Part shown: one piece after another, positions 22,909 through 64,000 of the stretch | How positions within the stretch are numbered: the stretch's first letter is position 1 | How the letters are laid out: every line of letters begins with the position of its first letter | NCBI GenBank assembly: GCA_032027165.1 | Contig: JAVSMO010000001.1 | Coordinates: 3,190,323 to 3,254,322, forward strand | Length of the DNA: 64,000 bases | Source of the DNA: Denitratisoma sp. | GTDB taxonomy: Bacteria; Pseudomonadota; Gammaproteobacteria; Burkholderiales; Rhodocyclaceae | Reading direction: 5' to 3' | The notes under the pieces: generated by a model | Database searches by the model: none | Told to the model about the DNA's origin: nothing | The model's input: only the letters and a program-made list of their open reading frames with translations | Translations under genes and position numbers: made by a program

Positions 22909-23996
22909 GCCTCAAATGCGGCATCGTCGGCCTGCCCAACGTCGGCAAGTCGACCCTCTTCAACGCCCTGACCAAGTCCGGCATCGCGGCGGAGAACTAT
23001 CCCTTCTGCACCATCGAGCCGAACGTCGGCATTGTCGAGGTGCCGGACTCCCGGATTGCCCAGCTTGCTGCCATCGTCAAGCCGCAGCGCGTGCAGAACG
23101 CCATCGTCGAGTTCGTCGACATCGCCGGGCTGGTGGCGGGTGCAAGCAAGGGCGAGGGCCTGGGCAACCAGTTCCTCGCCAATATTCGCGAGACCGATGC
23201 CATCGTGCATGTCGTGCGCTGTTTCCACAACGAGAACATCGTGCACGTCGCAGGCGAGGTGAGGCCGCTCTCCGACATCGAGACCATCGAGACCGAGCTG
23301 GCGCTGGCCGACCTGGCGACGGTCGAGAAGGCGCTGGCGCGCTACCGCAAACCGGCCCAGGCCGGCGACAAGGAGGCCAAGCTGCTGGTGGCGGTGCTCG
23401 ACAAGTGCGCCGCGCAATTGAACCAGGCGAAGCCGGTGCGCGCGCTCGACCTGTCGAAGGAGGAATGGCTCAATCTCAAGTCCTTCTGCCTGATCACGGC
23501 CAAGCCGACGCTGTATGCCGCCAACGTCGACGAGCAGGGCTTCACGGATAACCCGCTGCTGGCCGCGGTGGAGGCGCATGCGGCCAAGGAGAAGGCGCCT
23601 GTGGTGGCCTTTTGTGCGGCCATGGAAGCGGAAATCGCCGACCTAGCCGACGAGGACAAGGCGGTATTCCTGGCGGACATGGGACTGGAGGAGCCGGGGC
23701 TGAATCGCCTGATCCGCGCCGGCTACCAGTTGCTGGGGCTGCAGACCTACTTTACCGCCGGCGTGAAGGAAGTCAGGGCGTGGACCATACACGCGGGCGA
23801 TACCGCACCGCAGGCGGCAGGCGTCATCCATACCGACTTCGAGCATGGCTTCATCCGCGCCGAGGTAATTTCGTTCGCCGACTTCATCGCCTGCAAGGGG
23901 GAGCAGGGGGCGAAGGAGGCCGGCAAGATGCGGCTGGAAGGCAAGGACTACGTCGTGCGGGACGGTGACGTCATGCACTTCCGCTTCAATGTGTGA
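22905..23996 (+). CDS. ychF: Redox-regulated ATPase YchF (Obg family)
   Basis: A 363-aa OBG-family P-loop protein that binds ribosomes and prefers ATP. It shows [43 protein letters not shown], a coiled-coil middle domain, and the C-terminal TGS domain ([41 protein letters not shown]) ending HFRFNV. The last 20 bases are one copy of the 20-bp repeat that bounds the integrative element. The insertion leaves the reading frame intact and supplies the TGA (the other copy supplies TAG). Confidence 0.97.
23975..23994 (+). repeat. attL core: 20-bp direct repeat at the ychF 3' end
   Basis: GCACTTCCGCTTCAATGTGT lies at the end of ychF and recurs exactly at 33597-33616. It encodes the last residues of YchF, and its final T is the first base of the TGA. 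The integrase gene begins 292 bp inside this end, as expected for a tyrosine-recombinase element. Confidence 0.93.
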
Positions 23997-24002
23997 CTTG
24001 AG

Positions 24003-24270
24003 ATACCCGCTTCAGGACATTCCAGAACGTCGCATCATTCAATAAATAGCCTTGTAAATCAGCATTCAACGCTCTTAGTACGTTTCACACCATCGCTGGA
24101 CAACGCACGGGAAAGCGGGTACAAAAGCGGGTACCGAGGCCGGAGAGGTCGGAAGGTGTACCCGCTTTCTGGGGTGACTGTGGATAAGTTGCCCGCTCTC
24201 CGTACCCGCTTTTTCTGAATCGCCTCGGTAAATCAGTGGGCTGCGGAACTGACCCCAGTACCCGCTTTTT
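24003..24270. repeat. Arm-type integrase site cluster, left end
   Basis: An 11-bp motif, AAAGCGGGTAC or its complement GTACCCGCTTT, occurs at 24112-24122, 24124-24134 (direct pair), 24158-24168, 24202-24212 and 24258-24268 (inverted), with a close variant at 24003-24012 and a degenerate one near 24191. The same motif recurs at the right end. Tyrosine integrases with a DUF4102 arm-binding domain use repeated sites like these beside the att core. The 289-bp gap between ychF and the integrase holds nothing else apart from a DnaA-box-like 9-mer at 24179-24187. Confidence 0.75.
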
Positions 24271-24285
24271 CGAGGAGGCGAGGCG

Positions 24286-25575
24286 ATGGCGCGATTTCTG
24301 ACGAACGACAAGGCGATCCAGGCGGCCAAGAAGCGGGCCGTGGACTACAAACTCAACGACGGCGGCGGTTTGTACCTGCTGGTGAAGTCGGCCGGCTCGA
24401 AACTCTGGCGCTACCGCTACAAGCTGGCTGGCAAGGAAAACACCTTCGCCCTGGGCGAATACACCCGTGCCCCGGATGGCGAGAGCGAGGAGCAACGGGC
24501 GCAGCGCATCGCCGCCGGCTTCCTCACCCTGGCCGAGGCGCGCATCGAGCGCGACAGGGCGTGTGGACTGGTGGCGAAGGGCATCCATCCTGCGCACCAT
24601 CGGCAGAGCGAGCGCCAGCGCAACCTCGAGGCGAGCGAAGCACGCAAGCGAAAGTCTGAAAACAGCTTTGAGCGCGCCGCCCGCGCCTGGCTGGAAGACG
24701 GCAAGGGCAAATGGGCGGCCGGCACCCACCGTGCCAAGAAAGCCCGCGTCGAAAAACACCTGCTGCCGGCTCTCGGCGAGCTGCCCCTTGAAGAGATCGG
24801 CGTGAAGACGCTGCGCCCGCTACTGCTCGATCTGAAAGGCGGGGTGTGGACGGCGATCCACATCAAGGGGGACCTGTCGGGCATCTTCGACTTCGCCATC
24901 CTGCGCGGCTGGTGCGAGTCGAATCCGGTGTACCTGCTGCGCTCCTTGGTGGAGATCCCGCGGAGCGAGAACAAGGCGGCGCTGCAGGCGCCCCAGCTCC
25001 GCGACTTCTTCAAGAAGCTAACCGGCTATCGCGGCTGGCCGGAAACAGCGCTCGCCCTGCGCCTGATCCTGCTCACGGCCGCGCGTCCCGGCGAGGTGGC
25101 GGCGGCCGAATGGTCGGAGATCGATTTCGAGGCGCGCCTGTGGCGCCGGCCGGCGGCGAAGATGAAGGCGCGGGTCGACCATATTTCCCCGCTGTCCGAC
25201 CAGGCGGTGGCCCTGCTGCAGGAACTGCGCGCCATCACCGGCAACAGCGCACACTTGGTGCCGCGCCGCGACGGCACGCAGCGCCCCATCGATCCCGCCC
25301 GCTTCGCTTATGCGATGCGCGATCTGGCGCTCGCCGAGCGCGCCAGTCCGCACTGCTTCCGCGCCACCTTCTCGACATGGGCGAACGAACGGGGCTTCCG
25401 TCCCGACGCCATCGAAAAGCAGCTCGCCCATGTGCCCCGCGATGCGGTGCGCGCCGCCTATGACCGCTCGCTGCTGATCGAGGAGCGGCGGGCAATGATG
25501 CAGGCCTGGGCCGATTACCTGTCCTCCTTGGCGGCCGAGAATGTCATCGTCTCCCACTTCGGCCGCGCCGCCTGA
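24286..25575 (+). CDS. P4-type tyrosine integrase
   Basis: Site-specific recombinase of 429 aa that integrates the element at ychF. The N-terminal DUF4102 arm-binding domain is clear (LTNDKAIQAAKKRAVDYKLNDGGGLYLLV). The catalytic residues are Arg267 in LLTAARPGEVAAAEW, His356 and Arg359 in HCFRATFSTWANERG, His382 in QLAHVPRD, and Tyr392 in RAAYDRS. All are intact, so the enzyme should be active. A GAGG lies before the ATG. It reads into the element, with repeated arm sites in front. Confidence 0.95.
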   Translation: MARFLTNDKAIQAAKKRAVDYKLNDGGGLYLLVKSAGSKLWRYRYKLAGKENTFALGEYTRAPDGESEEQRAQRIAAGFLTLAEARIERDRACGLVAKGIHPAHHRQSERQRNLEASEARKRKSENSFERAARAWLEDGKGKWAAGTHRAKKARVEKHLLPALGELPLEEIGVKTLRPLLLDLKGGVWTAIHIKGDLSGIFDFAILRGWCESNPVYLLRSLVEIPRSENKAALQAPQLRDFFKKLTGYRGWPETALALRLILLTAARPGEVAAAEWSEIDFEARLWRRPAAKMKARVDHISPLSDQAVALLQELRAITGNSAHLVPRRDGTQRPIDPARFAYAMRDLALAERASPHCFRATFSTWANERGFRPDAIEKQLAHVPRDAVRAAYDRSLLIEERRAMMQAWADYLSSLAAENVIVSHFGRAA

Positions 25576-25593
25576 CCTTTCGCTGCCGGTTTC

Positions 25594-25727
25594 TTTTCTG
25601 ACCCTGTGTTTTGCGGTGGGGCAAGTGGGGCAGGTGGGGCAATCGCCCGGAAACCCGCGCCAGTGCTTGATCTACGCTGCCCCACTTCCTCCGAAAACGC
25701 ATGGGGCACGGTGGGGCGCGGTGGGGC
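25594..25727 (+). repeat. 134-bp iteron-rich inverted repeat, left copy
   Basis: This stretch matches the reverse complement of 32799-32932 over 134 bp with 3 substitutions by eye. It contains three tandem 9-bp-spaced copies of GTGGGGCA (25616, 25625, 25634), one inverted copy at 25678-25685, and three more near-copies spaced about 10 bp apart (25702-25728). Iterons of this kind typify replication-initiator binding sites. The 430-bp gap between integrase and HTH gene also holds the palindromes at 25874-25940. I see no convincing gene in it. Confidence 0.85.
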
Positions 25728-25873
25728 ATTTCCGTGTCAAGACGGCGCATCGGCGGCGCGAAAGGCGCCCCCTGCCTGCCGCCATCGGAAGGGGCGATTT
25801 TTGGATTTCCCACCCAGAGGCCAAAAATAGCCGGAAAACGTACGCAATTTCCCACTTCCTCGAATTACTACCG

Positions 25874-25940
25874 ATAACAGGTGTTATGTTTAATTGTGTC
25901 TCCCACTTTTACAATGAAATCAGAAAATACTTTGTATTTT
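25874..25940 (+). promoter_or_regulatory. Two palindromic operator candidates before the HTH gene
   Basis: A perfect 14-bp palindrome ATAACAGGTGTTAT (25874-25887) and an inverted repeat AAAATAC-TTT-GTATTTT (25924-25940) lie in AT-rich DNA 66-132 bp upstream of the HTH protein start. Autoregulation by that protein is likely but inferred. Confidence 0.5.
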
Positions 25941-26005
25941 CGCGTAGTTGCGCTATCCTCGGATTGTCACGCGCGCGCGAGGCGCGTAATACGGGAGCGC
26001 ACTGA

Positions 26006-26344
26006 ATGACGGCGGAAGAACTGAAGCAGGCTTTGAAGACGCTCGGATGGAAGCAAAGCGAGCTGGCGCGGCGCGTCGAGGTCGGGGATACCACCGTGTC
26101 TCGCTGGGCAGCCGGCGATCCGCCGGTGCCGGGACCGGTGGCGGCGTACCTCGGCATGGCGCTGGAAATTGACCGCCTGCACCGCCAGTACGTGCGCCCC
26201 ATCAAGCCGGCAAAAGCGGCTGCCGAAGAAGGCGCGGCCGACGAACCCGGCGGGGAGGGGCGCGCCCGGCAGCGGGTGCGCGAGCTGGGCGGCGCCGATC
26301 TGTTGGCCGGGACGCAACCGGGCAAGCCGGCGCCGGAGGCCTGA
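26006..26344 (+). CDS. HTH (XRE-like) regulator of the element
   Basis: A 112-aa protein with an N-terminal helix-turn-helix: LKQALKTLGWKQSELARRVEVGDTTVSRWAAGDPPVPGPVAAYLGMAL. This is a lambda-repressor/Cro-like fold with a TTVSRW recognition helix. The second half is Ala/Gly/Glu-rich and charged, without a recognisable domain. It is the first gene after a regulatory gap with two palindromes, so it is probably the element's master or autogenous repressor. Confidence 0.85.
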   Translation: MTAEELKQALKTLGWKQSELARRVEVGDTTVSRWAAGDPPVPGPVAAYLGMALEIDRLHRQYVRPIKPAKAAAEEGAADEPGGEGRARQRVRELGGADLLAGTQPGKPAPEA

Positions 26345-26375
26345 AGCGCTTGCAAAGGGCGCGGCGCGTGCTACG

Positions 26376-26397
26376 ATGTATCGACACGTTTATACAT
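26376..26397 (+). promoter_or_regulatory. VapB operator candidate overlapping a promoter
   Basis: ATGTAT-N10-ATACAT inverted repeat directly before the antitoxin start (ATG 26409). A plausible promoter precedes and overlaps it: TTGCAA at 26350-26355, 16-bp spacer, TACGAT at 26372-26377. Toxin-antitoxin operons are normally autorepressed at such sites. Confidence 0.55.
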
Positions 26398-26408
26398 AGG
26401 AGTGCGTC

Positions 26409-26657
26409 ATGAAACTGCAGGTGGCGAAATGGGGCAACAGCCTGGCGGTGCGCCTGCCCGCCGAATGCACGCGCGCTGCGGGTCTGCGCGAGGGCGATAG
26501 CGTTGAGGCAGAGATCACGCCGGCCGGCGAAATCACCCTGACGCCGGCCAAGCCCTTCGACAAGGTGGCCTTTCTCGCCCGCACCCGCAAGCGGCGTGCG
26601 GCGATGCCGCTCACCGAGGCGACGGTCGAGGGCATGCGCAAGGAGGCGCGCTACTGA
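26409..26657 (+). CDS. VapB-type antitoxin (AbrB/MazE-like domain)
   Basis: An 82-aa protein with an N-terminal swapped-hairpin AbrB domain (KLQVAKWGNSLAVRLPAECTRAAGLREGDSVEAEITPAGEITLTP) and a basic, probably unstructured C-terminal tail that would bind the toxin. The AGGAG Shine-Dalgarno sequence is strong. The stop overlaps the start of the PIN toxin gene, which is standard for vapBC operons. Confidence 0.92.
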   Translation: MKLQVAKWGNSLAVRLPAECTRAAGLREGDSVEAEITPAGEITLTPAKPFDKVAFLARTRKRRAAMPLTEATVEGMRKEARY

Positions 26658-27085
26658 TGATCTATCTCGATACCAGCGCCGCCGTGCCGCTGTTCGTGCT
26701 CGAGCCGTCGAGCGCGGCCGTCGACGCCTGGTACGAGGGCTGCGCCGTGCCGCTGGTGTCGTCGGATTGGATCGTGACCGAGTTCGCCAGCGCGCTGGCA
26801 ATGAAGGAGCGTGCCGGCATGCTGGCCGCGAAGGATGCGCGGGACGCCTGGCGCGAGTTCGAGGACTTTTGCGACGCCGGCCTGCGTCTGCTGCCGCTCA
26901 GCCGGGAGGCCTATCGAGAGGCCGCCGCGCTCGCCCGCCAGCACGGGCACGGCCTGCGCGCCGGTGATGCGCTGCACTTAGCGGCTGCGCTGGAAGCCGG
27001 GGCGAAGGAACTGGCCACGCTCGACGCGAACCAGGCGAGCAACGCGCGGCGGCTGAAGCTGCGCACGGTGGGGTTTTCGCTGTGA
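26657..27085 (+). CDS. VapC-type PIN-domain ribonuclease toxin
   Basis: A 142-aa PIN-domain protein. The acidic metal-binding residues are in place: Asp5 (YLDTSAAV), Glu42 (IVTEFASAL), Asp104 (RAGDALHLAA) and Asp123 (ATLDANQ). VapC toxins cut tRNA or rRNA when the antitoxin is lost, and the module should stabilise the element. It starts at the antitoxin stop and overlaps the following small gene by 4 bp. Confidence 0.93.
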   Translation: MIYLDTSAAVPLFVLEPSSAAVDAWYEGCAVPLVSSDWIVTEFASALAMKERAGMLAAKDARDAWREFEDFCDAGLRLLPLSREAYREAAALARQHGHGLRAGDALHLAAALEAGAKELATLDANQASNARRLKLRTVGFSL

Positions 27086-27264
27086 CGAAGAAGACGCCCG
27101 GGCCGAAGCTGGCCAAGGCGGGCGGAAATCGGCGCCGTCAGATCATTGTGGTTGCCGCCAACAAGCCGGACCCGGCGATCGCGGCCAAGGCGATCCTGCC
27201 GCTTCTTCTGGATTATGTGAGGCGCGAGCGCGCCAAGCTGAAGGAAGGGGCGGACGAGAAGTAG
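27082..27264 (+). CDS. Small basic protein, third gene of the vapBC operon
   Basis: A 60-aa frame starting with GTG at 27082 inside the end of vapC (4-bp overlap). The product is Lys/Arg-rich at both ends with a hydrophobic middle (PAIAAKAILPLLLDYVRRERAKL). I do not recognise it. The tight overlap suggests co-translation with VapC, and a long hairpin follows at 27289-27322. It could be a short regulator or simply a fortuitous frame. Confidence 0.55.
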   Translation: MTKKTPGPKLAKAGGNRRRQIIVVAANKPDPAIAAKAILPLLLDYVRRERAKLKEGADEK

Positions 27265-27288
27265 AGTTTACGCCGTAAGGCAAAGAGC

Positions 27289-27322
27289 GAGGGCGCAGCG
27301 TGTGACAGCACGCAGCGCCCTC
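27289..27322 (+). other. Long imperfect stem-loop after the vapBC operon
   Basis: GAGGGCGC and GCGCCCTC (8 bp), an A/A mismatch, then GCGTG and CACGC (5 bp) around the loop TGACAG. There is no T-run, so it may be a Rho-type or processing structure closing the toxin-antitoxin transcript. Confidence 0.5.
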
Positions 27323-27357
27323 TACCCACGAAGCAACCTGTGCAGGAGGTAAGCATC

Positions 27358-28149
27358 ATGGATGAGTCGCAGCCTACCACGTGTAACACAAAGAACGCAG
27401 AGTCTATTTGCCCATCCTGGGGAATGCCGACGATAGAGATGCCGGCAGATGCAGCCATGGATACCCGTGGATATATCGGGTTTAAATTGGGTACAGCGGA
27501 GGGACCGGTGCATGTTCGGGCTTACTGGAAAACTTGGGAGTGCCGTGGGACTGTCGCAGCTCTGGTAGCAGGAGGCTTGCTGCGCCCGGAATGGTGCCCC
27601 GGCTTACCCGGCAACAACAAAACCCGCCAGCAGGTTCTTTTCGACTCGGATGGTCCGCGCTTGCTCTTAGGAAATACCCGCGGGAAAAAGCAGCAAGGGG
27701 CGCATATCACCGTGTGCCGAATCTCAGCTCGTTCATTCATGGTCGAGGTGCTAGCAACGTTCGGTCAGCAAAAACGTCTTGAGGAATTCCATGAGAGAAG
27801 GCGGGCCAAATTGGACGCCGAAATAGAAAAAAAGCGACTGGCGTGCAAACCGGATGTGAATGAAGAGGTCTGCGACGGCGAGAATCCGGAAGATCGTGCG
27901 CGGCGCACTGCCGGCTTGGCGGATGCCATGCTGAACCAACTACGTGGGCTTGCTCTCGTTGAGCATAAGGGGCTAAAGCTCAGCATCGAGTCGCAGCAGC
28001 GGATTCTTCGGCAGATGGCCGAACTGCGCCGCGCCTTCGCCGAAGCGCGAGTGGTGGCCACGGCGCCCAGGTGCGCGCAGATCGAGAACATCATCTGCTG
28101 GCCTGGGCGCGGCAGTGTTGCGCAGGTTTCTCCAACGGCATTGCTCTAG
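27358..28149 (+). CDS. Hypothetical protein of the element, 263 aa
   Basis: I do not recognise this protein. An AGGAGGT sequence seven bases before ATG 27358 fixes the start; the frame is open from GTG 27340. The N-terminal half is rich in Cys, Gly and Trp (CPSWGMPTIEMP, WKTWECRGT, LRPEWCPGLPGNNKTRQQ). The middle is a long charged helix (KRLEEFHERRRAKLDAEIEKKRL), and the C-terminal part is another likely helix (IESQQRILRQMAELRRAFAEA). There is no signal peptide or membrane segment. GC and codon use are lower than in the flanking element genes, suggesting recent acquisition as cargo. Confidence 0.7.
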   Translation: MDESQPTTCNTKNAESICPSWGMPTIEMPADAAMDTRGYIGFKLGTAEGPVHVRAYWKTWECRGTVAALVAGGLLRPEWCPGLPGNNKTRQQVLFDSDGPRLLLGNTRGKKQQGAHITVCRISARSFMVEVLATFGQQKRLEEFHERRRAKLDAEIEKKRLACKPDVNEEVCDGENPEDRARRTAGLADAMLNQLRGLALVEHKGLKLSIESQQRILRQMAELRRAFAEARVVATAPRCAQIENIICWPGRGSVAQVSPTALL

Positions 28150-28196
28150 GCGCGGCATCCTGTCTCATGGGGTGCGCGGAAGCGGGGAGCATAAAC

Positions 28197-28787
28197 ATGC
28201 AGAGCAAGTATCCCGATTTAAACCTAGAAGCGAGTCTCAGTAAGCTGATCGAGTGGCTGGCATGGCGCCGTGGAAATCGCTACGACTATGCAGAGGATTC
28301 TCGGCGCCATCGAGGCCTTGCGACGAGGTTGCGGTCTATCACTTCCATGCTTGATGAGCAGGAATGGCTCTACTTGGAATGCGAATTCGACAAGGACCCG
28401 CCGCCCCGTGTCGGCGATGATGGTAGTTGGATTGCGCATCCTGGAGCCAACACGGCGCGGTACAAGGGGTTGCTTTCACAATTGACCGAGCTGGCGGAAA
28501 CAGCTGATCGCTTGGCTGACGAGAACCCGAGGTCGCGCACTAAGCCGGAGCTTCCAATAGCGGCGGACTTCTTTCTTCACCTTTGGTTGGCAGCCGGCAG
28601 AGACAGGCCTTCCCTTTACGATAAGAGCGATGCTGTGGCGGCTTTGCAAGATGTTCTGGCAAAGGCTGGCTATTCGCTATCCGCAGAGCGTGTGCGGGGC
28701 ATATTGTCCGATGCGTTGGGAAAATTTGATCCTCACTTTTGCCTTGACCAATGGCAGCTAGATCGTTTTATGGTTTGGCAAGAGTGA
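28197..28787 (+). CDS. Hypothetical protein of the element, 196 aa
   Basis: An unrecognised soluble protein. I start at ATG 28197, preceded by GGGGAG. The frame is open further upstream into the previous gene, with alternative starts at 28167 or earlier. It is mainly helical with aromatic-rich patches (SKLIEWLAWRRGNRYDYAEDSRRHRG, EEWLYLECEF-like stretch, FFLHLWLAAGRDRPSLYDKSD). The GC is clearly lower than in the neighbours. It probably forms a two-gene cargo unit with the gene before it. No function can be assigned from sequence. Confidence 0.65.
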   Translation: MQSKYPDLNLEASLSKLIEWLAWRRGNRYDYAEDSRRHRGLATRLRSITSMLDEQEWLYLECEFDKDPPPRVGDDGSWIAHPGANTARYKGLLSQLTELAETADRLADENPRSRTKPELPIAADFFLHLWLAAGRDRPSLYDKSDAVAALQDVLAKAGYSLSAERVRGILSDALGKFDPHFCLDQWQLDRFMVWQE

Positions 28788-28906
28788 GTTATTTTCGCAA
28801 GAGGAAATCAGCGTTTAAATTAACCTTTCGTCGCGAACACGCTCCGCTTAGAAATACGCTCCGTTAGCCCTGCCATCCGGTGGGGCCACACTCAACGGAG
28901 CGAAAC

Positions 28907-29140
28907 ATGTCTCAAACTCTCGAACGTCCCCGCGATGCTGCGAAGCGTTGCGGAATTTCCGTTTCCCAGCTGTACCGCGAAGTGAAAGCCGGGCGCATCG
29001 CGCCGCCGATCAAGGTTGGTGAGCGGGCCAGTGCGTTTCCCTCTGAGGAAATCGACCGCTTCATCTCCGAGCGGATCAAGGAAAGTCGCAAGGCGCAGCG
29101 TGCTGGTGCGTCAGCGCCGAATCCCGAAACGCAGGCGTAG
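28907..29140 (+). CDS. AlpA-like HTH protein
   Basis: A 77-aa protein with a winged-helix/MerR-like HTH of the AlpA/excisionase type: RPRDAAKRCGISVSQLYREVKAGRIAPPIKVGERASAFPSEEIDRFISERI. AlpA-family proteins in P4-like and CP4-57-like elements activate integrase or excision, or control the replication operon. The ACGGAGC before ATG 28907 supports this start. It heads the rightward block leading to the primase-helicase. Confidence 0.88.
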   Translation: MSQTLERPRDAAKRCGISVSQLYREVKAGRIAPPIKVGERASAFPSEEIDRFISERIKESRKAQRAGASAPNPETQA

Positions 29141-29149
29141 GGGGCGGCC

Positions 29150-29386
29150 ATGAGGGAACAAGAACAGAGCGCGCCCGCTGGCGTGAATATCAGCGAACTG
29201 GAAGTCAGTGCCGGCGATACGGCGATGAGCTTCCTGGAATCGGCCGAGCATTGCATCGATCTGCAGTTCGGCGCCGGCTTTGCGGCCAGGCACCCGGTGC
29301 TGGTGGCGGGATTCGTGCAAGCGTCTGCACTGATCTTTCTCGCCGAACGGGTCGCCGAGCGAATGGAGGGGCGCCAGCATGGTTGA
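29150..29386 (+). CDS. Small hypothetical protein, 78 aa
   Basis: Begins 9 bp after the AlpA-like gene and ends overlapping the next gene by 8 bp, so it belongs to one operon. The product has an acidic N-terminus and a hydrophobic segment near the C-terminus (HPVLVAGFVQASALIFLAERVAERM). That segment may be amphipathic or a weak membrane helix. I do not recognise it. Small proteins in this position of satellite elements are common and mostly uncharacterised. Confidence 0.65.
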   Translation: MREQEQSAPAGVNISELEVSAGDTAMSFLESAEHCIDLQFGAGFAARHPVLVAGFVQASALIFLAERVAERMEGRQHG

Positions 29387-29939
29387 ACGACCGCCCTTCC
29401 TGGTGGGCATCGAGGATTTTCTGAACAAGCCCACGCCACTGCCGGACCATACCTTCCGCATCGGGGAAGGTGGGCACGCCAACGCCGGGCAGTTCCCCAA
29501 CTTCCGCTACATGGCCTTCCACGTCATCGGCAAGGCGCCGGCGCCGATGCCGGACGGTTCCGTCGACACGCTGGGCATGGGTATCTTCGCCTTGGGCGGG
29601 TTGATTGGCGATGCCTGCCTGAAGCTGGCACGGCCCTGGCCGCTCGCGCCAGGCGAGCGATTCGTCGCCGATCCGGCGCAGGGGTTGATCGTGGAAATTG
29701 CTGACGGTCTGTTGCCGCTGTCGCCGAAGGCGGACGCGGTGCGCGGCGCCTTCCTGTGCCGGATGGGTGAGTTTCTGGAAATCGTCCTGCACCGGCCCGA
29801 GCGGTTGCCGGCCATCATCGCGAATGTCGACGCGCTCACGAATGCGCGCCTTACGGAGCGGGCGGCGGCGATCCTGCGCACCGGCGTTGATCCCGGCGCC
29901 GCCGATCTGTGGCAATCGGCCAACCCTCTCGATCTCTGA
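29379..29939 (+). CDS. Hypothetical protein, 186 aa
   Basis: An unrecognised protein in the replication operon. The N-terminal third has PPFLVGIEDFLNKPTPLPDHTFRIGEGGHANAG. The middle is a Gly/Ala-rich hydrophobic stretch (LGMGIFALGGLIGDACLKLARPWPL) too short for a confident membrane span, and the C-terminus is helical (NVDALTNARLTERAAAILRTGVDPGAADLW). It overlaps the gene before it and ends 11 bp before the primase-helicase start, so it is cotranscribed with it and may be a replication accessory factor. Confidence 0.65.
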   Translation: MVERPPFLVGIEDFLNKPTPLPDHTFRIGEGGHANAGQFPNFRYMAFHVIGKAPAPMPDGSVDTLGMGIFALGGLIGDACLKLARPWPLAPGERFVADPAQGLIVEIADGLLPLSPKADAVRGAFLCRMGEFLEIVLHRPERLPAIIANVDALTNARLTERAAAILRTGVDPGAADLWQSANPLDL

Positions 29940-29950
29940 GGGCGCGCGAG

Positions 29951-32728
29951 ATGATCCGAGTGGACATAGTTGCGGCCTTCCGCGCCGCCATGCGAGAGGC
30001 CGGCATCGATACCGACGACGAGATCGAAGCCGATGGCCAGCCGCATCGCTTCTACGTCGCTGGCGACAAGGCGGGCACGAAGAACGGCACCTACTGCCTG
30101 TACGCCGATGGCGTGCCGGCGGGTTGGTTCGGCACCCATCGCGGCGGCTGGGAAACGCATACTTGGTGCCTGAAGGCGGAGCGGGAGATCTCCGAGGACG
30201 AGCGGACGGCGCATCGCCAACGCATGGAGGAGGCCGAGCGATCAAAGGCGGCCGAGGAGGCGAAGCGCAAGGCCGATGCCCGCAAGCGCGCGGCGGCGAT
30301 CTGGAGGGGCGCCAAGGCCTGCGACGATGCGCACCCTTACCTGCAGCGCAAGGGCGTCAAGGGGCACGGCCTGAAGGCGGCAACCTGGCGCGCCTGGCAC
30401 CAGGCCGAGGGCGGGCAGTGGCAGGAACGGCGCATCGATGGGGCGCTGCTGGTGCCGATGCGCGACAGCAAGGGCACGCTGCACAGCCTGCAGGCGATCT
30501 TCCCCGAGCGGGATGCGGCCCTGGGGCGGGACAAGGATTTTCTGCCCGGCGGCGAGAAGCGCGGCTGCTATCACGCCATCGGCAAGCCGGCCGGCGTCAT
30601 CCTGGTGGCGGAAGGCTACGCCACCGGCGCGAGCCTGCATGAAGCGACCGGGCATGCCGTTGCTGTGGCCTTCGACTGCGGCAACCTGAAGCCGGTTGCC
30701 GAGGTGCTTCGGGTGAAATATCCCGAGGCGCGCCTGGTCGTCTGCGTCGACAACGATCAATTCACCGAAGGCAATCCGGGCGTGACGAAAGGGCGCGAGG
30801 CGGCGGAAGCGGCCGGCGCCGAGCTGGCCGTGCCCGAGTTCGCCGACCTGGCCGGCGAGCCGACCGACTTCAACGACCTGGCGCAGCGGGAAGGGGCGGC
30901 GAAGATCAAGGAGTCGATCCAGGCGGCGTTGCAGGCCTTGGGAGATGCCTCGGCATCAACTGCCCTCAGAAAGCCGCGCAGCGGCCGGGATTCGGCGCCG
31001 GCGGAGGCGGATGCTCCGGCTGCGAAGGCGCAATCCGGCCGGCGCTTCGAGTTGAACGAGCGCGGCCTGTGGCTGCATGAGCCCGAGAAATCGCCGCGCT
31101 GGATATCGCCGCCGCTGGAAGTCGTCGCCCTGGTGCGCGATCACTCGAATTGCGGTTGGGGCCTGCTGCTGGCCTTCGATGATCGGGACTGGAAGCGGCA
31201 CCGTGTCATCATCCCGCACGCCTTCCTGAAGGGCGAGGGCGCCGAAGCGCTGGCGCTGCTGCTCGACCGGGGCTTCATCCCGGCGCACAAGAGCGAGTCG
31301 CATCTGATCGATTATCTGAAGCGGGCGAATCCGGAAAAGCGCGCCCGCGTAACGGACCGCACCGGCTGGCACGAAGGCGGTGTCTTCGTGTTGCCTGACC
31401 GCAGCATCGGCGCCGCCGAGGAGGAAGTGATTTTCCAGAGCGACGCGCCGGGTACGAACACTTTCAAGAGCAAGGGCACGCTCGACGCCTGGCGGGAACA
31501 CGTCGCCAAGCCCTGCGCCGGCAATTCTCGCCTGGTGTTCGCCGTGTCGGCGGCCTTCGCCTCGGCACTGCTGCACCCGGCCGGCGCCGAGGGCGGCGGC
31601 TTCCACTATCGCGGTGGCTCCTCGGCCGGCAAGACGACGCTGCTGCGTGTGGCAGCCAGCGTGTGCGGCGGGCCGGAATTCATGCAGCGCTGGCGTGCGA
31701 CGGACAACGGGCTTGAGGCGATGGCGCTGCAGCATTGCGATTCGCCTCTGCTGCTCGACGAACTGGCGCAGCTCGATCCGCGGGCGGCGGGCGAGGTGGC
31801 GTACATGCTCGCCAACGGCAGCGGCAAGAGCCGGGCGGCGAGAACCGGCACGTTGCGTGAGCGGGCGAACTGGCGCGTGCTGTTCCAGTCGGCCGGCGAG
31901 ATCGGCCTGGCCGAACACATGGCGGAAGCCGGCAAGCGCACCCGCGCCGGGCAGGAAATCCGCCTGTGCGAAATTCCTTCCGATGCCGGCGCAGGCCTTG
32001 GCTGCTTCGAGGATCTGCGCGGCCAGGCGAACGGCAGCGAGTTCGCCAAGACGCTCGACCAGGCAACGCGCCGCTACTACGGCACGGCCTGGCCGGCGTT
32101 CCTTGAAGCGATCATCGCCGAGCTTGATGCGCTGCCGGGGCTGCTGCGCGAACTGCAGCGCAAGTTCGAAGCGCAATACCTCACCGGCGAGGCCGGCGGG
32201 CAGGCAATGCGCGTGTCGGGACGCTTCGCCCTGGTGGCGGGCGCCGGCGAGCTGGCAACGAAACTGGGCTTGACCGGCTGGCAGCCGGGCGAGGCGCTGC
32301 AGGCGGCCGGCGCCTGCCTCAAGGCCTGGCTGTCGCAGCGCGGCGGCGAGAGCAACCAGGAAGAGCGCGCCATGCTGGCGCAGGTACGGGAGTTCTTCGA
32401 GCGGCACGGAGAGGCACGCTTTGCCGACTGGGAGAGGCCGGCAACGAAGGACGATCATGCGCCACGCGTCATCAACAAGGCCGGCTTCAGGCGACACGAT
32501 GAAGTCGAGGACCGCACCGAGTGGTACGTCTACCCGCAGGTGTGGCGCAGCGAGGTATGCAAAGGCTTCGATCCCCGTGAAGTTGCGCGCCTGCTGTCGC
32601 AGCGTGAAATGATCGAGACAACCAAGGAGGAGAAGCACGCGCATACCCCCAAGATCGAGCTGCCCGGCGAAGGCCGGCGCCGTGTGTACCACGTGCTGCC
32701 GGCGCTGTTCGGAGACGACGATGCTTGA
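29951..32728 (+). CDS. TOPRIM/DUF927 primase-helicase
   Basis: Likely replication protein of the element, 925 aa. An N-terminal primase-associated region (FYVAGDKAGTKNGTYCLYADGVPAGWFGTHRGG) is followed by a TOPRIM domain, with catalytic Glu in VAEGYATGAS near residue 222 and the DXD motif in VVCVDNDQ near 262. The C-terminal half is a DUF927/superfamily-3-like helicase with Walker A GGSSAGKTTLL near residue 555, Walker B PLLLDELAQLD, and a further motif LANGSGKSRAARTG. This parallels the phage P4 alpha protein. I chose ATG 29951; the open frame begins 42 bp earlier at GTG. Confidence 0.9.
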   Translation: MIRVDIVAAFRAAMREAGIDTDDEIEADGQPHRFYVAGDKAGTKNGTYCLYADGVPAGWFGTHRGGWETHTWCLKAEREISEDERTAHRQRMEEAERSKAAEEAKRKADARKRAAAIWRGAKACDDAHPYLQRKGVKGHGLKAATWRAWHQAEGGQWQERRIDGALLVPMRDSKGTLHSLQAIFPERDAALGRDKDFLPGGEKRGCYHAIGKPAGVILVAEGYATGASLHEATGHAVAVAFDCGNLKPVAEVLRVKYPEARLVVCVDNDQFTEGNPGVTKGREAAEAAGAELAVPEFADLAGEPTDFNDLAQREGAAKIKESIQAALQALGDASASTALRKPRSGRDSAPAEADAPAAKAQSGRRFELNERGLWLHEPEKSPRWISPPLEVVALVRDHSNCGWGLLLAFDDRDWKRHRVIIPHAFLKGEGAEALALLLDRGFIPAHKSESHLIDYLKRANPEKRARVTDRTGWHEGGVFVLPDRSIGAAEEEVIFQSDAPGTNTFKSKGTLDAWREHVAKPCAGNSRLVFAVSAAFASALLHPAGAEGGGFHYRGGSSAGKTTLLRVAASVCGGPEFMQRWRATDNGLEAMALQHCDSPLLLDELAQLDPRAAGEVAYMLANGSGKSRAARTGTLRERANWRVLFQSAGEIGLAEHMAEAGKRTRAGQEIRLCEIPSDAGAGLGCFEDLRGQANGSEFAKTLDQATRRYYGTAWPAFLEAIIAELDALPGLLRELQRKFEAQYLTGEAGGQAMRVSGRFALVAGAGELATKLGLTGWQPGEALQAAGACLKAWLSQRGGESNQEERAMLAQVREFFERHGEARFADWERPATKDDHAPRVINKAGFRRHDEVEDRTEWYVYPQVWRSEVCKGFDPREVARLLSQREMIETTKEEKHAHTPKIELPGEGRRRVYHVLPALFGDDDA

Positions 32729-33389
32729 TCTGGACACTCTCTTTCCGCCGCCGGCGGGGCAGCCTGGGGCGGGTGGTGCTACGTCCTGCGACGATTCCGC
32801 CCCACCGCGCCCCACCGTGCCCCATGCGTTTTCGGATGAAGTGGGGCAACGTAGATCAAGCACTGGCGCGGGTTTCCGGGCGATTGCCCCACCTGCCCCA
32901 CTTGCCCCACCGCAAAATACAGGGTCAGAAAAAAAACCGATGGAAGCCGGCGCGCGTGCGGCGCGGCGCACGGACGAACTTCGCGCCGTCGAAACGCTAC
33001 CCTGGCAGCCGCAGGAGGCCGAGCGAGCGCAAGCCGCATTCCTGGTGGCCAGCGTCTTCACCCATGAGAACGACACGGAGGCGGATCGCGCCGAGGCCTT
33101 CGGTATGGCGCTGGAATCGCGGGAGCAGTTCGAGTGGCTGCGTCTGCGCAGCGGCAGGCCTGCGGTGTTCGATGACCAGGAAGACAACCGCCGGCCGTGC
33201 GCCTGCTGCCGCAACCTGGCGGAGTCGGGCCGCTGCCTGGCGGCGATCCGCCGGGAGATCGTGGCACGCCTGCCCTACAGCCCGCCGCGCTTCCTGCTGC
33301 AGCGCTGCCCGGCCTATCTACCTGCTGCGGGAGATCCAGACCCGAGGCCGGCGCTTGAGCGCTGGCCGGGGTTGTGTGAGCAAGGGTAG
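32721..33389 (+). CDS. Hypothetical protein overlapping the right iteron repeat, 222 aa
   Basis: Starts at ATG 32721 inside the last codons of the primase gene. Residues about 27-71 are encoded by the 134-bp iteron repeat and are Pro/Ala-rich low complexity (APPRPTVPHAF, APPAPLAPPQN), so this part is probably a by-product of DNA-level constraint. The C-terminal two thirds looks like a real domain, with an EREQFEWLRLRSG-like block and three Cys in RRPCACCRNLAESGRC that could bind a metal. I do not recognise it. The start could lie beyond the repeat (ATG 32941). Confidence 0.65.
   Translation: MLDLDTLFPPPAGQPGAGGATSCDDSAPPRPTVPHAFSDEVGQRRSSTGAGFRAIAPPAPLAPPQNTGSEKKPMEAGARAARRTDELRAVETLPWQPQEAERAQAAFLVASVFTHENDTEADRAEAFGMALESREQFEWLRLRSGRPAVFDDQEDNRRPCACCRNLAESGRCLAAIRREIVARLPYSPPRFLLQRCPAYLPAAGDPDPRPALERWPGLCEQG
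32799..32932 (-). repeat. 134-bp iteron-rich inverted repeat, right copy
   Basis: Reverse complement of 25594-25727 with about 3 mismatches, carrying the same seven GTGGGGCA-type iterons. It lies just after the primase-helicase gene, inside the coding frame of the next gene. The copies face each other across about 7.1 kb that holds the regulator, toxin-antitoxin, cargo and replication genes. Confidence 0.85.
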
Positions 33390-33462
33390 GGGGGGTGTAA
33401 ATCTCTGCAGTCTCTTCACCGGACACCGGACGCCTAGGCAAATTTTTTCGAGCGGGAGTTTC

Positions 33463-33493
33463 GGGGGGGTGGGGGTGGGTTGCAGGGGGAGGG
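33463..33493 (+). other. G-quadruplex-forming tract
   Basis: Runs of 7, 5, 3, 5 and 3 G separated by 1-5 nt, all on the + strand, in the 207-bp noncoding right end of the element. A perfect 6-bp hairpin (GCGGCA / TGCCGC, 33496-33511) follows at once, then the arm sites. The tract satisfies the usual four-run quadruplex rule. Confidence 0.7.
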
Positions 33494-33511
33494 TTGCGGC
33501 ACGCATGCCGC

Positions 33512-33534
33512 AAAGCGGGTACGGAAGCGGGTAC
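33512..33534 (+). repeat. Arm-type integrase sites, right end
   Basis: Two tandem copies, AAAGCGGGTAC (33512-33522) and GAAGCGGGTAC (33524-33534), 63 bp inside the right core repeat. They match the motif clustered at the left end, as expected for P' arm sites. Confidence 0.75.
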
Positions 33535-33596
33535 GGAAGCTAAAATGAAAACGGCATATAGCGGAAAAGCGATTGAAAAACAGTGTGATGACTACA

Positions 33597-33616
33597 GCAC
33601 TTCCGCTTCAATGTGT
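33597..33616 (+). repeat. attR core: 20-bp direct repeat
   Basis: Exact second copy of 23975-23994. It contains the stop codon (TGA, read leftward at 33610-33608) and the last two codons of the diguanylate cyclase gene. Together with the next bases it also recreates a YchF end with TAG. Confidence 0.93.
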
Positions 33617-60827: not shown

Positions 60828-61803
60828 TTAAAGCCGGTCCAGCGGACTTTTCACGGCCCGGGTCACCTCCAGGACATGGGTGTAGATCATCGTGGTTTGC
60901 AGGCTGCGATGACCCAACAGCAACTGGATGGTCCGGATATCCGTACCGGAGGCGAGCAGATGCGTGGCAAAGCTGTGGCGCAGGCAATGCACGCTGGCGT
61001 GCTTGCGAATCTCAGCGCCTGCGATTGCCTGTTTGAAGGCGCGCTGGATGGTGGAATCCGACACATGCCAACGCACCAGCCGGCCGCTCTTGCCCCACGG
61101 CCTCAATACGGACGAGGGGAACAAATACTGCCAGGCCAAGGATGCCGAGGCGGCAGGATACTTCCTCGCCAGCGCATCCGGCATCGGCGCCAGGCCCGCC
61201 CCGCGCAACAGGTCCTCCTTGTGAAGGGTCGCTACCCGGAGCAGGTGTTGCTGAATCGATAGCGCTGCCAGGTCGGGCAGCACCGTCGTCCTGTCCTTGC
61301 TTCCCTTGCTGTTCCGGATAGAGATCGTGCGTGCGCCCATGTCGATATCCTTGACCCTGAGCGTGACGCACTCATGCACACGCAGTCCGGCGCCATACAT
61401 CAGCTCCGCCATCAGGCGGCAGGATCCCGTCATCAGGCCAAGGGTCGCGCGCACCTCATCCTGAGTCAGCACCACTGGAACGCGATGCCGGTGCTGCACG
61501 CGCTTCAACCCGGCCATTTGCCCAAGCGGCTTGTGCAGCACGCTGTCGTACAGAAACACCAGGGCATTCAGGGCCTGGGTCTGGGTGGAGGCCGCCACCC
61601 GTCGTTCAACGGCCAGGTGGTTCAGAAAGCCTTCGACCTCAATGGCCCCCAGATCGCTCGGATGCTGCTTGCCGTGAAAGAAGATGAATTGCCTGATCCA
61701 GAAACGGTAGGCCTCTTCAGTGCGCCGGCTGTAATGACGGCGCCGGCAAGTGGCGGAAACCTGATCGAGCAGGCGAGGGCGGGCGGGGTTTAATGGACCC
61801 CAT
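60828..61803 (-). CDS. intI: Integron integrase IntI with a frameshift next to its start
   Basis: Tyrosine recombinase of the integron type. The catalytic Arg (MYGAGLRVHECVTLRVKD), HXXR (HCLRHSFATHLL), second His (LLLGHRSLQTTM) and Tyr (IYTHV) are intact, and the IntI-specific extra helix is present (PDALARKYPAASASLAWQYLFPSS). The N-terminal domain (LLDQVSATCRRRHYSRRTEEAYRFWIRQFIFFHGKQHPSDL) is readable but one base out of frame with the only good ATG (61803). Removing one base from the run of four C at 61798-61801 would give MGPLNPARPRLLDQV and a 324-aa protein. As sequenced, the open frame lacks a standard start before GTG 61598. Confidence 0.88.
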
Positions 61804-61999
61804 GATTGTCACTCCTTGATGAAATAGCGCCAACCTAGCGGCTGGCGGCCCCCTTGCCAACCTGTCCGGACTATTGAGGGTTCTTAGGCGGACGCAGGAA
61901 TTTCAAAAAACTTGCAAATCATATGGATAGACCAATAAAATGCCTGCATCATTATCAATTGATAGACGGACCCATGGGTCCGTCTAATAACTGTTAGAT
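61804..61999 (+). promoter_or_regulatory. attI region with cassette promoter and palindrome
   Basis: The gap between intI and the first cassette. A candidate cassette promoter reads TTGCAA (61912-61917), 18-bp spacer, TAAAAT (61936-61941), directed into the array. A perfect 24-bp palindrome centred on CCATGG lies at 61963-61986, and the recombination core GTTAGAT is at 61993-61999. The palindrome ends 6 bp before the core, so it may be part of the integrase-binding structure. Confidence 0.65.
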
Positions 62000-62008
62000 G
62001 CTTATCTC

Positions 62009-62569
62009 ATGACTCCAATCACTAAAGACATCAAGACCCAGTTATCCACCGGTGAAAGTGTGCTGTGGTCCGGGCAACCACGTCAGGGCATCATTCTTCG
62101 GGGCACCGACGCTTTCATGATTCCGTTCAGCCTGTTGTGGGGCGGCTTCGCCATATTCTGGGAGCTTTCAGTTATCAATTCCAACGCGCCGGCATTTTTC
62201 GTGCTGTTTGGAATTCCCTTCGTTCTCATCGGCATTTACCTCATCATCGGCCGCTTCTTTTTCGAGGCAAAGCGCCGCGCCCGTACCTACTACGCGGTAA
62301 CCAATGAACGGGTACTAATTGTCTCTGGCTTGTTTGGGCGCAAAGTTCAGTCGCTAAACCTTCGCACCCTCTCCGACCTCTCGCTTTCAGAAACCAAAGG
62401 CGATGAAGGCACCATCGCCTTCGGAGGTGGATCACCTTTCGGTTCAATGTTTGGCGGCTTTTCTGGCTGGCCGGGCATGGGTGCGTACTTAGGCCCTCGC
62501 TTCGAGTTAGTCGCAAACGCGAAAACCATCTTCGAAACCATTCGTGGGGCACAACGTGCTGCTGCTTAA
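62009..62569 (+). CDS. Cassette 1: PH-like membrane protein
   Basis: A 186-aa protein. A short soluble start (KDIKTQLSTGESVLWSGQPRQGI) is followed by two membrane helices (about residues 35-55 and 60-80), then a bacterial PH-like domain (RARTYYAVTNERVLIVSGLFGRKVQSLNLRTLSDLSLSE) and a Gly/Phe-rich segment. Proteins of this shape are common in cassette arrays and their role is unknown. The start codon lies 10 bp inside the cassette core, typical for cassette genes without a promoter of their own. Confidence 0.8.
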   Translation: MTPITKDIKTQLSTGESVLWSGQPRQGIILRGTDAFMIPFSLLWGGFAIFWELSVINSNAPAFFVLFGIPFVLIGIYLIIGRFFFEAKRRARTYYAVTNERVLIVSGLFGRKVQSLNLRTLSDLSLSETKGDEGTIAFGGGSPFGSMFGGFSGWPGMGAYLGPRFELVANAKTIFETIRGAQRAAA

Positions 62570-62573
62570 TCCC

Positions 62574-62647
62574 GCATCAAACCCGCCGCTCCAGGGGACG
62601 CTGCGCGATAAAGCGCCGCGCAGCGCCCCTGAGCTATCACGTTATGC
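62574..62647 (+). repeat. attC site of cassette 1
   Basis: From GCATCAAAC (62574-62582, one mismatch to the complement of the cassette's first bases) to the core GTTATGC (62641-62647). The middle holds GACGCTGCGCG-AT...-CGCGCAGCG arms that fold into a long hairpin, shared by all attC sites here. Confidence 0.85.
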
Positions 62648-62690
62648 GTCACAATCATTTGCCACTCCGGCAGCACAAGGGAGAAATATC

Positions 62691-63329
62691 ATGCGTCGCT
62701 TGCTGATCATTGCAATTCCGCTTTCTGTCGCGGCATGCGCCGGAAAAGTCGATTACGTTCGCCCAACTACGCAACTTGCTCCCGCATCGAACGTCAAGAC
62801 CATCGATAGACCGCGTGAGGCGGTATGGAACGCAAGCGTTCCTGAACTGGGTAAGCAGTTTTTTGTAATCAACAATCTCGATAAATCGTCCGGCCTAATG
62901 AACATCAGCTATACGGGCGACCCCGAACGCTACATAGACTGCGGACGAATTACCTCCTATGTGAAGAACGCTCGCGGAGAGCGTACATACGACTTCCCCG
63001 GAGCGAAGGCGCAACAGTCATACGAAATAATGAATCCGAGTGTTGGACTATTTCACCTTGATCGCCGCATGAATCTAGAAGGTCGAGTGAACTTGATCTT
63101 CGAGGAAGTTAGCCCCACGACAACCCGCATAACTGCAAATACGAGATATGTCGTGACAAGAACGCAAGTTGTTCAGAGTGCGGCTAACAACATCCCGCAA
63201 ACCAAGACCGACACTATCTCTTTCAATTCAGGGTCTGGTGCTTCATTTCCAATGGCTAACCAAGGGCAGGCAGCCGAATGTGTCTCTACGGGTGCATTGG
63301 AGCGAGAGATTCTCTCGGCGATCAAATGA
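62691..63329 (+). CDS. Cassette 2: lipoprotein of unknown function
   Basis: A 212-aa precursor with lipobox (LLIIAIPLSVAAC, Cys15), preceded by AAGGGAG. The mature part has RPREAVWNASVPELGKQFFVINNLDKSSGLMNISYTGDPERYIDCGRI, a pattern like the BamC/NlpB-type lipoprotein repeats (conserved W..V...L....F.I...D...G.I...Y). A central basic helix-poor region and a Ser/Thr-rich end follow. I cannot assign a role. Non-cassette relatives are likely chromosomal outer-membrane lipoproteins. Start at 62691 is fixed by the signal sequence; the open frame before it is attC DNA. Confidence 0.8.
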   Translation: MRRLLIIAIPLSVAACAGKVDYVRPTTQLAPASNVKTIDRPREAVWNASVPELGKQFFVINNLDKSSGLMNISYTGDPERYIDCGRITSYVKNARGERTYDFPGAKAQQSYEIMNPSVGLFHLDRRMNLEGRVNLIFEEVSPTTTRITANTRYVVTRTQVVQSAANNIPQTKTDTISFNSGSGASFPMANQGQAAECVSTGALEREILSAIK

Positions 63330-63330
63330 C

Positions 63331-63400
63331 GCATAACCCGGCAGTCCACACGGACGCTGCGCGATAAAGCCGCGCAGCGCCGGTGACCTCCACGTTAGAA
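63331..63400 (+). repeat. attC site of cassette 2
   Basis: R'' box GCATAAC (63331-63337) is the exact complement of the cassette's starting core GTTATGC. The site ends in the core GTTAGAA (63394-63400). The 70-bp site has the same central CGCTGCGCGATAAAGC-CGCGCAGCG hairpin. Confidence 0.9.
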
Positions 63401-63404
63401 CTCT

Positions 63405-63941
63405 ATGGCTATCCACTTCTGGAACACTGACAAACTGATCAAGCGCCTCGCGGATGACAACGTCTCCGAGATTGAGACGATGCGCTACGCCATGATTGGC
63501 GCAGGGCTGTATTCGTTTGCTATTTACTACGCCCTTTTGGCCGGTACCTATCGGAGTTGGCTTCTTCTGTATGAATTTATTTGCGTATTGCTCATCTCTG
63601 TAATTGGTGTCGCGGAATGCTTTAAGGCCAACGGTGGTCCACTCGGCCGCGACTTCCTGAAACGCTTTACCGTTATAAGTATTCCAGTCGGTATCAAGCT
63701 ATTTCTGGCGGGACTTTTTTTCGGCATTGTTGGATATTTCGGGTTTAGTTATGTTGTTACCCCGCAAAGCTTCCGAAATCCAGCTTTTGTATTTGAGCTG
63801 TACTCCTTTGCATTTGCGGCGCTCTTCATGTTTGTTTACTACTGGCGCATTGCAACACATTTATCTCGGTTGCAATTGCAACAGAGTTCTAACACTGCGC
63901 TCCAAGGGACGCTGCGCGATGAAGCCGCGCAGCGCCCCTGA
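63405..63941 (+). CDS. Cassette 3: membrane protein whose C-terminus is encoded by attC
   Basis: A 178-aa protein with four hydrophobic segments (about residues 28-47, 52-70, 88-110 and 125-147) after an amphipathic start (WNTDKLIKRLADDNVSEIETMRYAMIGAG). I do not recognise the family. The frame runs on into the attC site, so the last 18 or so residues (TALQGTLRDEAAQRP) are encoded by the recombination site itself. It starts 10 bp into the cassette. Confidence 0.78.
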   Translation: MAIHFWNTDKLIKRLADDNVSEIETMRYAMIGAGLYSFAIYYALLAGTYRSWLLLYEFICVLLISVIGVAECFKANGGPLGRDFLKRFTVISIPVGIKLFLAGLFFGIVGYFGFSYVVTPQSFRNPAFVFELYSFAFAALFMFVYYWRIATHLSRLQLQQSSNTALQGTLRDEAAQRP

Positions 63942-63956
63942 GCTTGGACGTTAGAA
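63887..63956 (+). repeat. attC site of cassette 3
   Basis: R'' TTCTAAC (63887-63893) complements the cassette's first core GTTAGAA; the flanking GAG extends the match to 10 bp. The site ends in GTTAGAA (63950-63956). It is 70 bp long and nearly identical in its core hairpin to the attC of cassette 1. Confidence 0.9.
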
Positions 63957-63959
63957 CTC

Positions 63960-64000
63960 ATGGCGCCGCACGTCTCTGACCAGTCAACAGTTGTTCGGTG
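63960..64000 (+). CDS. Cassette 4: start of an unidentified gene (truncated by the window)
   Basis: ATG 63960, 10 bp inside the cassette core as in cassettes 1 and 3, opens a frame beginning MAPHVSDQSTVVR. Only 13 codons are visible, too few for a call. Confidence 0.5.
   Translation, partial: MAPHVSDQSTVVR

Follow-up and report, generated by a model that had tools for sequence, protein, structure and literature searches.

Two separate variable slots behind a phage-type integrase in a Denitratisoma element, the first a probable target of a SymR-type cis-antisense RNA

Two adjacent genes of low GC content, here called A and B, lie in an integrated element of Denitratisoma sp. On balance, we favor the view that they occupy two separate slots, that a SymR-type cis-antisense RNA has the gene in slot 1 as its target and that slot 2 is RNA-led in related elements. 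Judged from the DNA sequence, A is very probably such a target. The argument is carried by a structured leader ahead of A, an antisense -10 box at a fixed position, the geometry of the symE/symR locus of Escherichia coli and the absence of A-B linkage in the loci examined. We further infer that the RNA is produced, that it represses A and that translation of A affects the operon. Two anonymous ORFs thus turn into a regulatory locus which can be tested.

The element extends from 23975 to 33616 of the window, i.e., of the entire stretch of 64,000 nucleotides which was analysed. It is integrated, about 9.6 kb long and bounded by a 20-bp direct repeat. The left att copy (23975..23994) is located at the 3' end of ychF (named by eye) and the right one (33597..33616) is identical to it. 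On the + strand the gene order is as follows: a tyrosine integrase (24286..25575; PF00589, E 2.6e-16; PF13356, E 1.8e-20), a Cro/CI-type HTH regulator (26006..26344; PF01381, E 6.5e-06), a VapB-like antitoxin of the MazE/AbrB kind (26409..26657; PF04014, E 1.1e-12) with a VapC-like PIN toxin (26657..27085; PF01850, E 3.9e-14), a 60-aa ORF, A, B, an AlpA-like excisionase/regulator (28907..29140; PF12728, E 3.4e-06; phrog_66, E 1.2e-08), two unknown ORFs and a Toprim/DUF927 primase-helicase (29951..32728; PF06048, E 6.8e-86; phrog_1139, E 1.9e-102). A hairpin with a perfect 9-bp stem (28857..28902, + strand) sequesters the SD of alpA, which is held in the 3' strand of the stem according to the fold of this leader.

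A long inverted repeat flanks the core of the element. Arm 1 (25587..25749) with TGGGGCA iteron-like units is directly 3' of the integrase gene, arm 2 (32777..32939) directly 3' of the primase gene. The arms have 163 nt and are 91% complementary; by blastn they match over 141 nt at 97%. Such pairs of about 130-160 nt with TGGGGCA-like iterons were seen in 6 of 28 sources, e.g., at 7662-7807/12799-12944 of L007, 9764-9908/15246-15390 of L018, 5714-5864/10772-10922 of L057, 6047-6187/10872-11012 of L060 and 7142-7274/8317-8449 of L059. L059 differs from the rest, its two arms both being on the primase side; five elements have one arm 3' of the integrase and the other 3' of the primase gene. Within one element the arms are 91-99% identical, across elements clearly less. 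The pairs look like paired replication origins which are kept alike by concerted evolution; P4 with ori and crr serves as a comparison. They could also permit inversion of the element core. A 710-nt repeat in L053 seems to be unrelated to these pairs.

A and B form the lowest-GC stretch of the element (GC 0.580 and 0.547, GC3 0.629 and 0.579, respectively, vs 0.648 for the whole element). When windows of the same length are moved through the element in 50-nt steps, 7 of 164 are as low, all of them starting at 27351-27651. The 64-kb window has 35 of 1252 such windows; the other 28 start at 61151-62551, and a second low-GC stretch with a GC of about 0.50-0.60 is present at 61001-64000. The low GC does not stop at 28787, as alpA has 0.611 and the ORF after it 0.624, hence this edge is blurred. 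The sequence-only reading of this region had described two closely spaced genes of lower GC with ribosome binding sites of their own, which match no recognisable family and constitute variable cargo between VapBC and AlpA. This description was borne out: SD-like stretches precede A (AGGAGG) and B (GGGGAG), and for neither protein did Pfam, PHROGs, PADLOC and NCBIfam give a family match better than chance.

The leader of A (27289-27363, + strand view) consists of a hairpin, TACCCACGA, the SD and the start codon. Upstream of relatives of A a common hairpin is followed by TAACCACAA or a similar stretch, the SD and ATGGCT. In an unfitted count using the outer six pairs of seven loci, 39 of 42 cells were paired compared to 27.0 expected from strand shuffling; 13 of 20000 shuffles reached this value. 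Three of the seven loci were used to build the model R1, which ends at +6. At E 0.01, R1 detected the leader in 20 of 100 related genomes. Another draw of genomes, which overlaps in part with the first, had it in 12 of 75 at E 0.001, adding six new genomes with eight loci. The R1 alignment has 29 distinct rows, two of which lie opposite a stronger row; likewise, two of the 31 rows of R1 matches are other-strand matches of stronger ones. In this alignment, which was fitted to the model and thus leans to it and which contains some weak rows, 87.5% of the pair cells are paired vs 66.0% after shuffling and 35-48% after sliding, and 69 pair cells have changed on both sides vs 20.6 after shuffling. 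The covariation comes from the hairpin and not from the part around the SD. The SD-proximal CCT/AGG pairing (helix 2) exists in part of the loci and varies on one side only.

The leader is regularly found behind integrases, and the genes which follow it differ widely. Counting leader loci, 21 of 27 have a same-strand integrase match at most 1.8 kb upstream (in 7 of 27 within 50 nt), the entry 'no integrase' for L088 being uninformative due to a wrongly chosen orientation; of the eight new loci six have an integrase upstream when either strand is counted. The leader precedes A in six cases, RadC-like proteins in L068 and L080, and otherwise many small ORFs. A few slot-1 ORFs are very short (13 aa in L103), and the slot-1 product may not be what selection acts on. 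In one genome (G081) two slot-1 leaders are spaced 435 nt apart behind a single integrase match (1501-1574 and 1936-2009 of L083); either leader has a separate ORF and shows the antisense -10 pattern. The leaders may spread as DNA cassettes, in which case the loci are not fully independent.

A position inside the coding region, beyond the end of R1, points to the opposite strand. In the window a predicted antisense -10 box, TAGGCT preceded by TGG, is located on the minus strand at 27371..27376, i.e., inside codons 5-7 of A. The predicted start is 27363, and the predicted SymR-type cis-antisense RNA occupies 27289..27363 on the minus strand; the prediction draws on R1, the covariation, a weak RF00043 match and the geometry of symR. 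Across loci, TANNNT occurs on the antisense strand at sense positions +14..+19 in 22 of 25; the next best offset reaches 3 of 25 and the mean over 240 offsets is 0.28. R1 ends at +6, and therefore positions +14..+19 were not selected for. A T at +6, 7 nt from the box where the start would fall, is invariant (25/25), as is a T at +18, a third codon position, in genes most of which are from GC-rich genomes. The set of 25 leaves out L088, whose GTG start had not been set, and L097, whose leader does not end at a start codon; also missing are L014 and L018, which lack an R1 match, and L016, where R1 matches only weakly and on the opposite strand. The set comprises the three sequences used to build R1 as well as two leaders (L083 and L098) of one genome. 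With the offset fixed beforehand, the box was at +14..+19 in 7 of the 8 new loci, in the eighth at +13, and all eight have T at +6.

The other promoter and terminator signals are modest. A strict promoter scan of 27000-29200 returned no site. The antisense -35 region is weak with a mean combined promoter z of 0.51 vs -0.42 for a control stretch (23 loci). The T-tract of an antisense terminator shows as an A at -3, -4 and -5 in 29, 24 and 21 of 33 loci, respectively. An antisense -10 box was not seen in slot 2, where the best offset is 2 of 15. A promoter box which keeps one exact position in the coding starts of genes that are not related to each other strongly points to a conserved gene for an antisense RNA.

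The same geometry is realized at the symE locus. The annotated symR of E. coli MG1655 covers +6 to -71 of symE; the RNA predicted for A has a similar extent, +6 to about -70. Opposite +14..+19 symE has TAGAAT, with T at +6; the window has TAGGCT at the same offset. The symE leader consists of a hairpin, TAATCACAA, the SD and the start codon, and the place of TAATCACAA is taken by TAACCACAA in relatives of A and by TACCCACGA in the window. At symE, two silent changes in the -10 region of symR (CATTCT to CACTCC) are reported to have abolished SymR and to have raised SymE protein (Kawano et al., 2007; PMC1891008). R1 does not score the symE leader; thus the link to symE/symR is one of geometry and motif, together with Rfam matches which are weak. 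A search with Rfam over slot-1 leaders gave, at several loci, RF00043 on the sense strand and SymR (RF01809) or PtaRNA1 (RF01811) on the antisense strand; none of these matches reaches the gathering cutoff. The matches to the R1162-like plasmid antisense RNA (RF00043) and PtaRNA1 (RF01811) lie exactly over the slot-1 leader, the best, at L090, having 54.4 bits vs a cutoff of 55. In the window, RF00043 matches 27288-27365 with 20.6 bits (gathering 55); the window itself has no Rfam SymR match, those of related loci being below gathering, and Rfam at the scale of the element shows no other credible RNA. We also considered A as a derived SymE from a GL...G stretch which looks similar by eye. The best blastp E value was 0.23 over 7 residues and hhalign gave probabilities of 0.2 and 0.1, and the idea was discarded. 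The occurrence of symE in integron cassettes is on record (PMC12444791). A search of the open literature for int-alpA, PtaRNA1 and SymR plus integrase, covering titles and the beginnings of abstracts, returned no description of the present arrangement.

How might such a locus operate? The minus-strand promoter in codons 5-7 of A would start an RNA of about 75 nt at about 27363, which would run back to 27289 and on its way cover the start codon, the SD and the hairpin of the leader. By pairing with the mRNA it would prevent A from being translated; the precedent for repression is symE/symR. In the integrated state the RNA would keep A off, and polarity exerted by the untranslated slot-1 message may dampen slot 2, alpA and the primase gene. 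A would then appear upon a change in copy number or transcription, as might be caused by helper infection, excision or replication. A far wider proposition is conceivable, if doubtful: SymR-class RNA may be the standing repression switch of many integrase-borne elements in Burkholderiales, gating the next gene and, by polarity, the excision/replication operon. It would then resemble the immunity RNAs of phages, of which P4 has one. The c4 RNA of P1 represses Ant synthesis (PMC8546580). The slot-1 proteins including A would be exchangeable passengers of a switch which the E. coli symE locus has borrowed or shares.

Gene A (27358..28149, + strand; ATG at 27358, stop at 28149) encodes 263 aa with 9 Cys and 5 Trp. 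The sequence-only reading had spoken of a Cys/Trp-rich protein. This fits in halves: Cys is true of A and Trp is true of B, which has 7 Trp and 2 Cys. A predicted model of A (mean pLDDT 68.3) has a beta domain at about residues 20-135, over most of which pLDDT is >80, followed by long helices. The beta domain holds a loosely conserved, PG-rich ALxxxGLxxxxxPGxxG stretch. Profile and structure comparisons, proposed earlier as a check, identified no family (PADLOC: none for A or B at E up to 1) and for the A model no notable fold match in PDB (best Foldseek E 0.11) or BFVD (0.046). VIA-align gave Z up to 6.9, nearly all rows covering the helical part. Searches of PDB sequences with A and B yielded nothing useful. 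Neither A nor B was found in the plasmid and phage records searched, there also with the distant form of A from L012, and scans of viral contigs gave no relatives of either. A class-level search with the distant form gave 0 of 369, which is uninformative as the search had no positive control.

Relatives of A are rare. Matches were found in 4 of 100 related genomes, the own genome included, and by a profile search of the order in at least 5 of 399 genomes, with up to six candidates scored per genome; six loci came from genomes of named species and overlap in part with the other searches. After merging, the A-family has 10 distinct loci: the window, Sterolibacterium (L015), Methylobacillus arboreus (L007/L017), M. 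rhizosphaerae (L018), a Burkholderiales MAG (L014), a Pseudomonadota MAG (L016, cut inside A by the contig end), Nitrosomonas (L019, frame-shifted) and the genomes G007 (L008), G225 (L012) and G342 (L013). R1 is positioned directly ahead of A in 6 of the 10. L014 has neither an R1 match nor the box; L018 has kept the box and lost the hairpin together with the R1 match; in L016 R1 matches only weakly and on the opposite strand; and the leader of L008 is followed first by an ORF of 122 aa, the end of which overlaps with the beginning of A. Both Methylobacillus elements have A between the integrase and a primase which is about 50% identical to that of the window over 590 residues. Just past the primase end of the M. 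rhizosphaerae element there is a DarT + macro-domain (DarG-like) pair (L018, 15964-17713).

Could A and the antisense RNA be a toxin with its antitoxin, i.e., a type I pair which stabilizes the element or aborts a phage infection when the RNA decays? The leader geometry is that of symE/symR, a toxin locus, and 4 of the 10 A-family loci have toxin-antitoxin genes in the interval from the integrase to A (VapBC in the window, HigBA in L015 and L019, a HigA-like gene in L013). However, the sequence of A is related neither to SymE nor to any family in Pfam. RadC-like proteins and many small proteins of unrelated kinds are preceded by the same RNA, which hence is not tied to toxins; further, SymR is reported to be very stable (PMC1891008). 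We consider a toxin-antitoxin pair unlikely. Quite improbable is a leader which acts in cis as a riboregulator or attenuator of the integrase-slot-1 transcript and dispenses with an antisense RNA. The strong covariation of the sense hairpin and the CCT/AGG pairing which some of the loci have near the SD would suit it, yet it leaves unexplained why a minus-strand -10 box is found at one exact offset in non-homologous genes and why a T occupies the predicted start.

The proximity of the integrase gene raises a further candidate function for A. A same-strand tyrosine integrase or a part of one is upstream in 9 of 10 A-family loci, L016 being the exception (the integrase match in L019 falls below the cutoff of Pfam). 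Thus A might be a helper which the integrase needs for excision, by analogy with iolg, which is adjacent to int in PICMI satellites and is reported to be necessary for their excision (PMC10803314). The slot is occupied by an unrelated gene at most of the leader loci, which does not imply a common helper, and we rate an excision helper as a rather remote prospect.

Gene B (28197..28787, + strand; ATG at 28197, stop at 28787) encodes 196 aa. Its predicted model is helical and of low confidence (mean pLDDT 48.5). Among 100 related genomes B was found in its own genome only. A family search of 249 genomes at E 0.01 returned B itself and four weak matches, of which the one in G906 was kept (L077, 8047-8637; 28% identity over 86 aa, E 5e-4; 29% over 92 aa in a direct comparison). 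The other three were discounted: an ORF resembling malate synthase by eye, a match with internal stops and one with E 0.00999. B itself matches malate synthase weakly (E 0.015, 38 residues), which drew the ORF read by eye as malate synthase (L074) into the genome search; we take this match to be chance because the matched stretch is not conserved in the relative of B. A profile from the two rows found 1 of 300 genomes, which was that of the window.

Slot 2 has an RNA context of its own in related elements. Matches to the int-alpA RNA of Rfam (RF02996) end just ahead of the slot-2 ORF, between integrase and alpA. A model, R2, was built from ten int-alpA loci with the start codon included and matched 15 distinct loci. 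In all 15 an ORF starts at the match end or at most 8 nt from it; 13 loci share one offset of the start codon within the match, and the remaining two have it 2 and 8 nt past the match end. As to this offset only the five loci not used for building are independent, three having the same offset and two being those 2 and 8 nt beyond. The relative of B in G906 begins at an R2 match and is one of these five. An AlpA-like ORF follows the R2 match in 11 of 15 loci, in four of which the AlpA itself had been the query. The slot-2 proteins are mostly unalike, with four related pairs among 18; a common HTH end, suspected by eye, was not shown by Pfam or PHROGs. These matches assign a definite place to the int-alpA RNA of Rfam: it directly precedes the slot-2 gene and extends over its start. 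Ahead of B neither Rfam nor R2 detects an int-alpA RNA in the window. It may constitute a second RNA-led control point, which the window would have lost or never had. Other RNA matches were seen in related elements: a C4 antisense RNA (RF01695, 61.6 bits) at 3632-3718 of L061, another primase element, and sRNA-Xcc1 (RF02221) shortly ahead of the primase at 7781-7868 of L053 and 11798-11889 of L055.

The sequence-only reading had proposed that A and B form a two-gene defence unit. A check for co-occurrence, the lack of which that reading had named as refuting, speaks against it, as no A-B linkage emerged in any locus examined. Using tblastn, B was not found in the available DNA of the other A-family loci (L016 ends inside A; L014 has 3.4 kb). 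Conversely, the A profile found nothing at E 0.001 in G906, the genome with the convincing relative of B, where the arrangement is int - radC - B' - primase without A. No relative of A has B adjoining and the relative of B is without A; consequently A and B are not a paired defence unit as far as these loci are concerned, and it is unlikely that they are a paired defence system rather than the fillings of two separate variable slots. A joint role against phages or competing elements is thus very hard to credit, even though the two genes of unrecognised kind occupy a variable slot beside an integrase, where P4-like satellites carry defence genes (PMC9122126), since A and B do not co-occur in the loci examined, PADLOC is empty and each slot has its own RNA context in relatives.

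How does the element relate to known satellites? Definitions of P4 and PICMI are available (PMC8628076, PMC9122126, PMC10803314). The element had initially been read as a P4-like satellite. It has the integrase, AlpA and primase-helicase in common with these, but the PHROGs scan of its ORFs, run without a positive control, detected no Psu, Sid, delta or epsilon family, and the label is not upheld. PICMI are similar in that they, too, are small int - alpA - primase elements, and no capsid gene was present among the element ORFs scanned. PICMI are described from a fis site in Vibrionaceae and with a DUF3987/DUF5906 primase (PMC10803314), whereas the present element uses ychF and has a Toprim/DUF927 primase. 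With respect to symE/symR the differences are of another kind: the predicted target A is unrelated to SymE, and it resides behind an integrase in a mobile element. The shared geometry ties the E. coli symE/symR locus to a recurrent site behind phage-type integrases.
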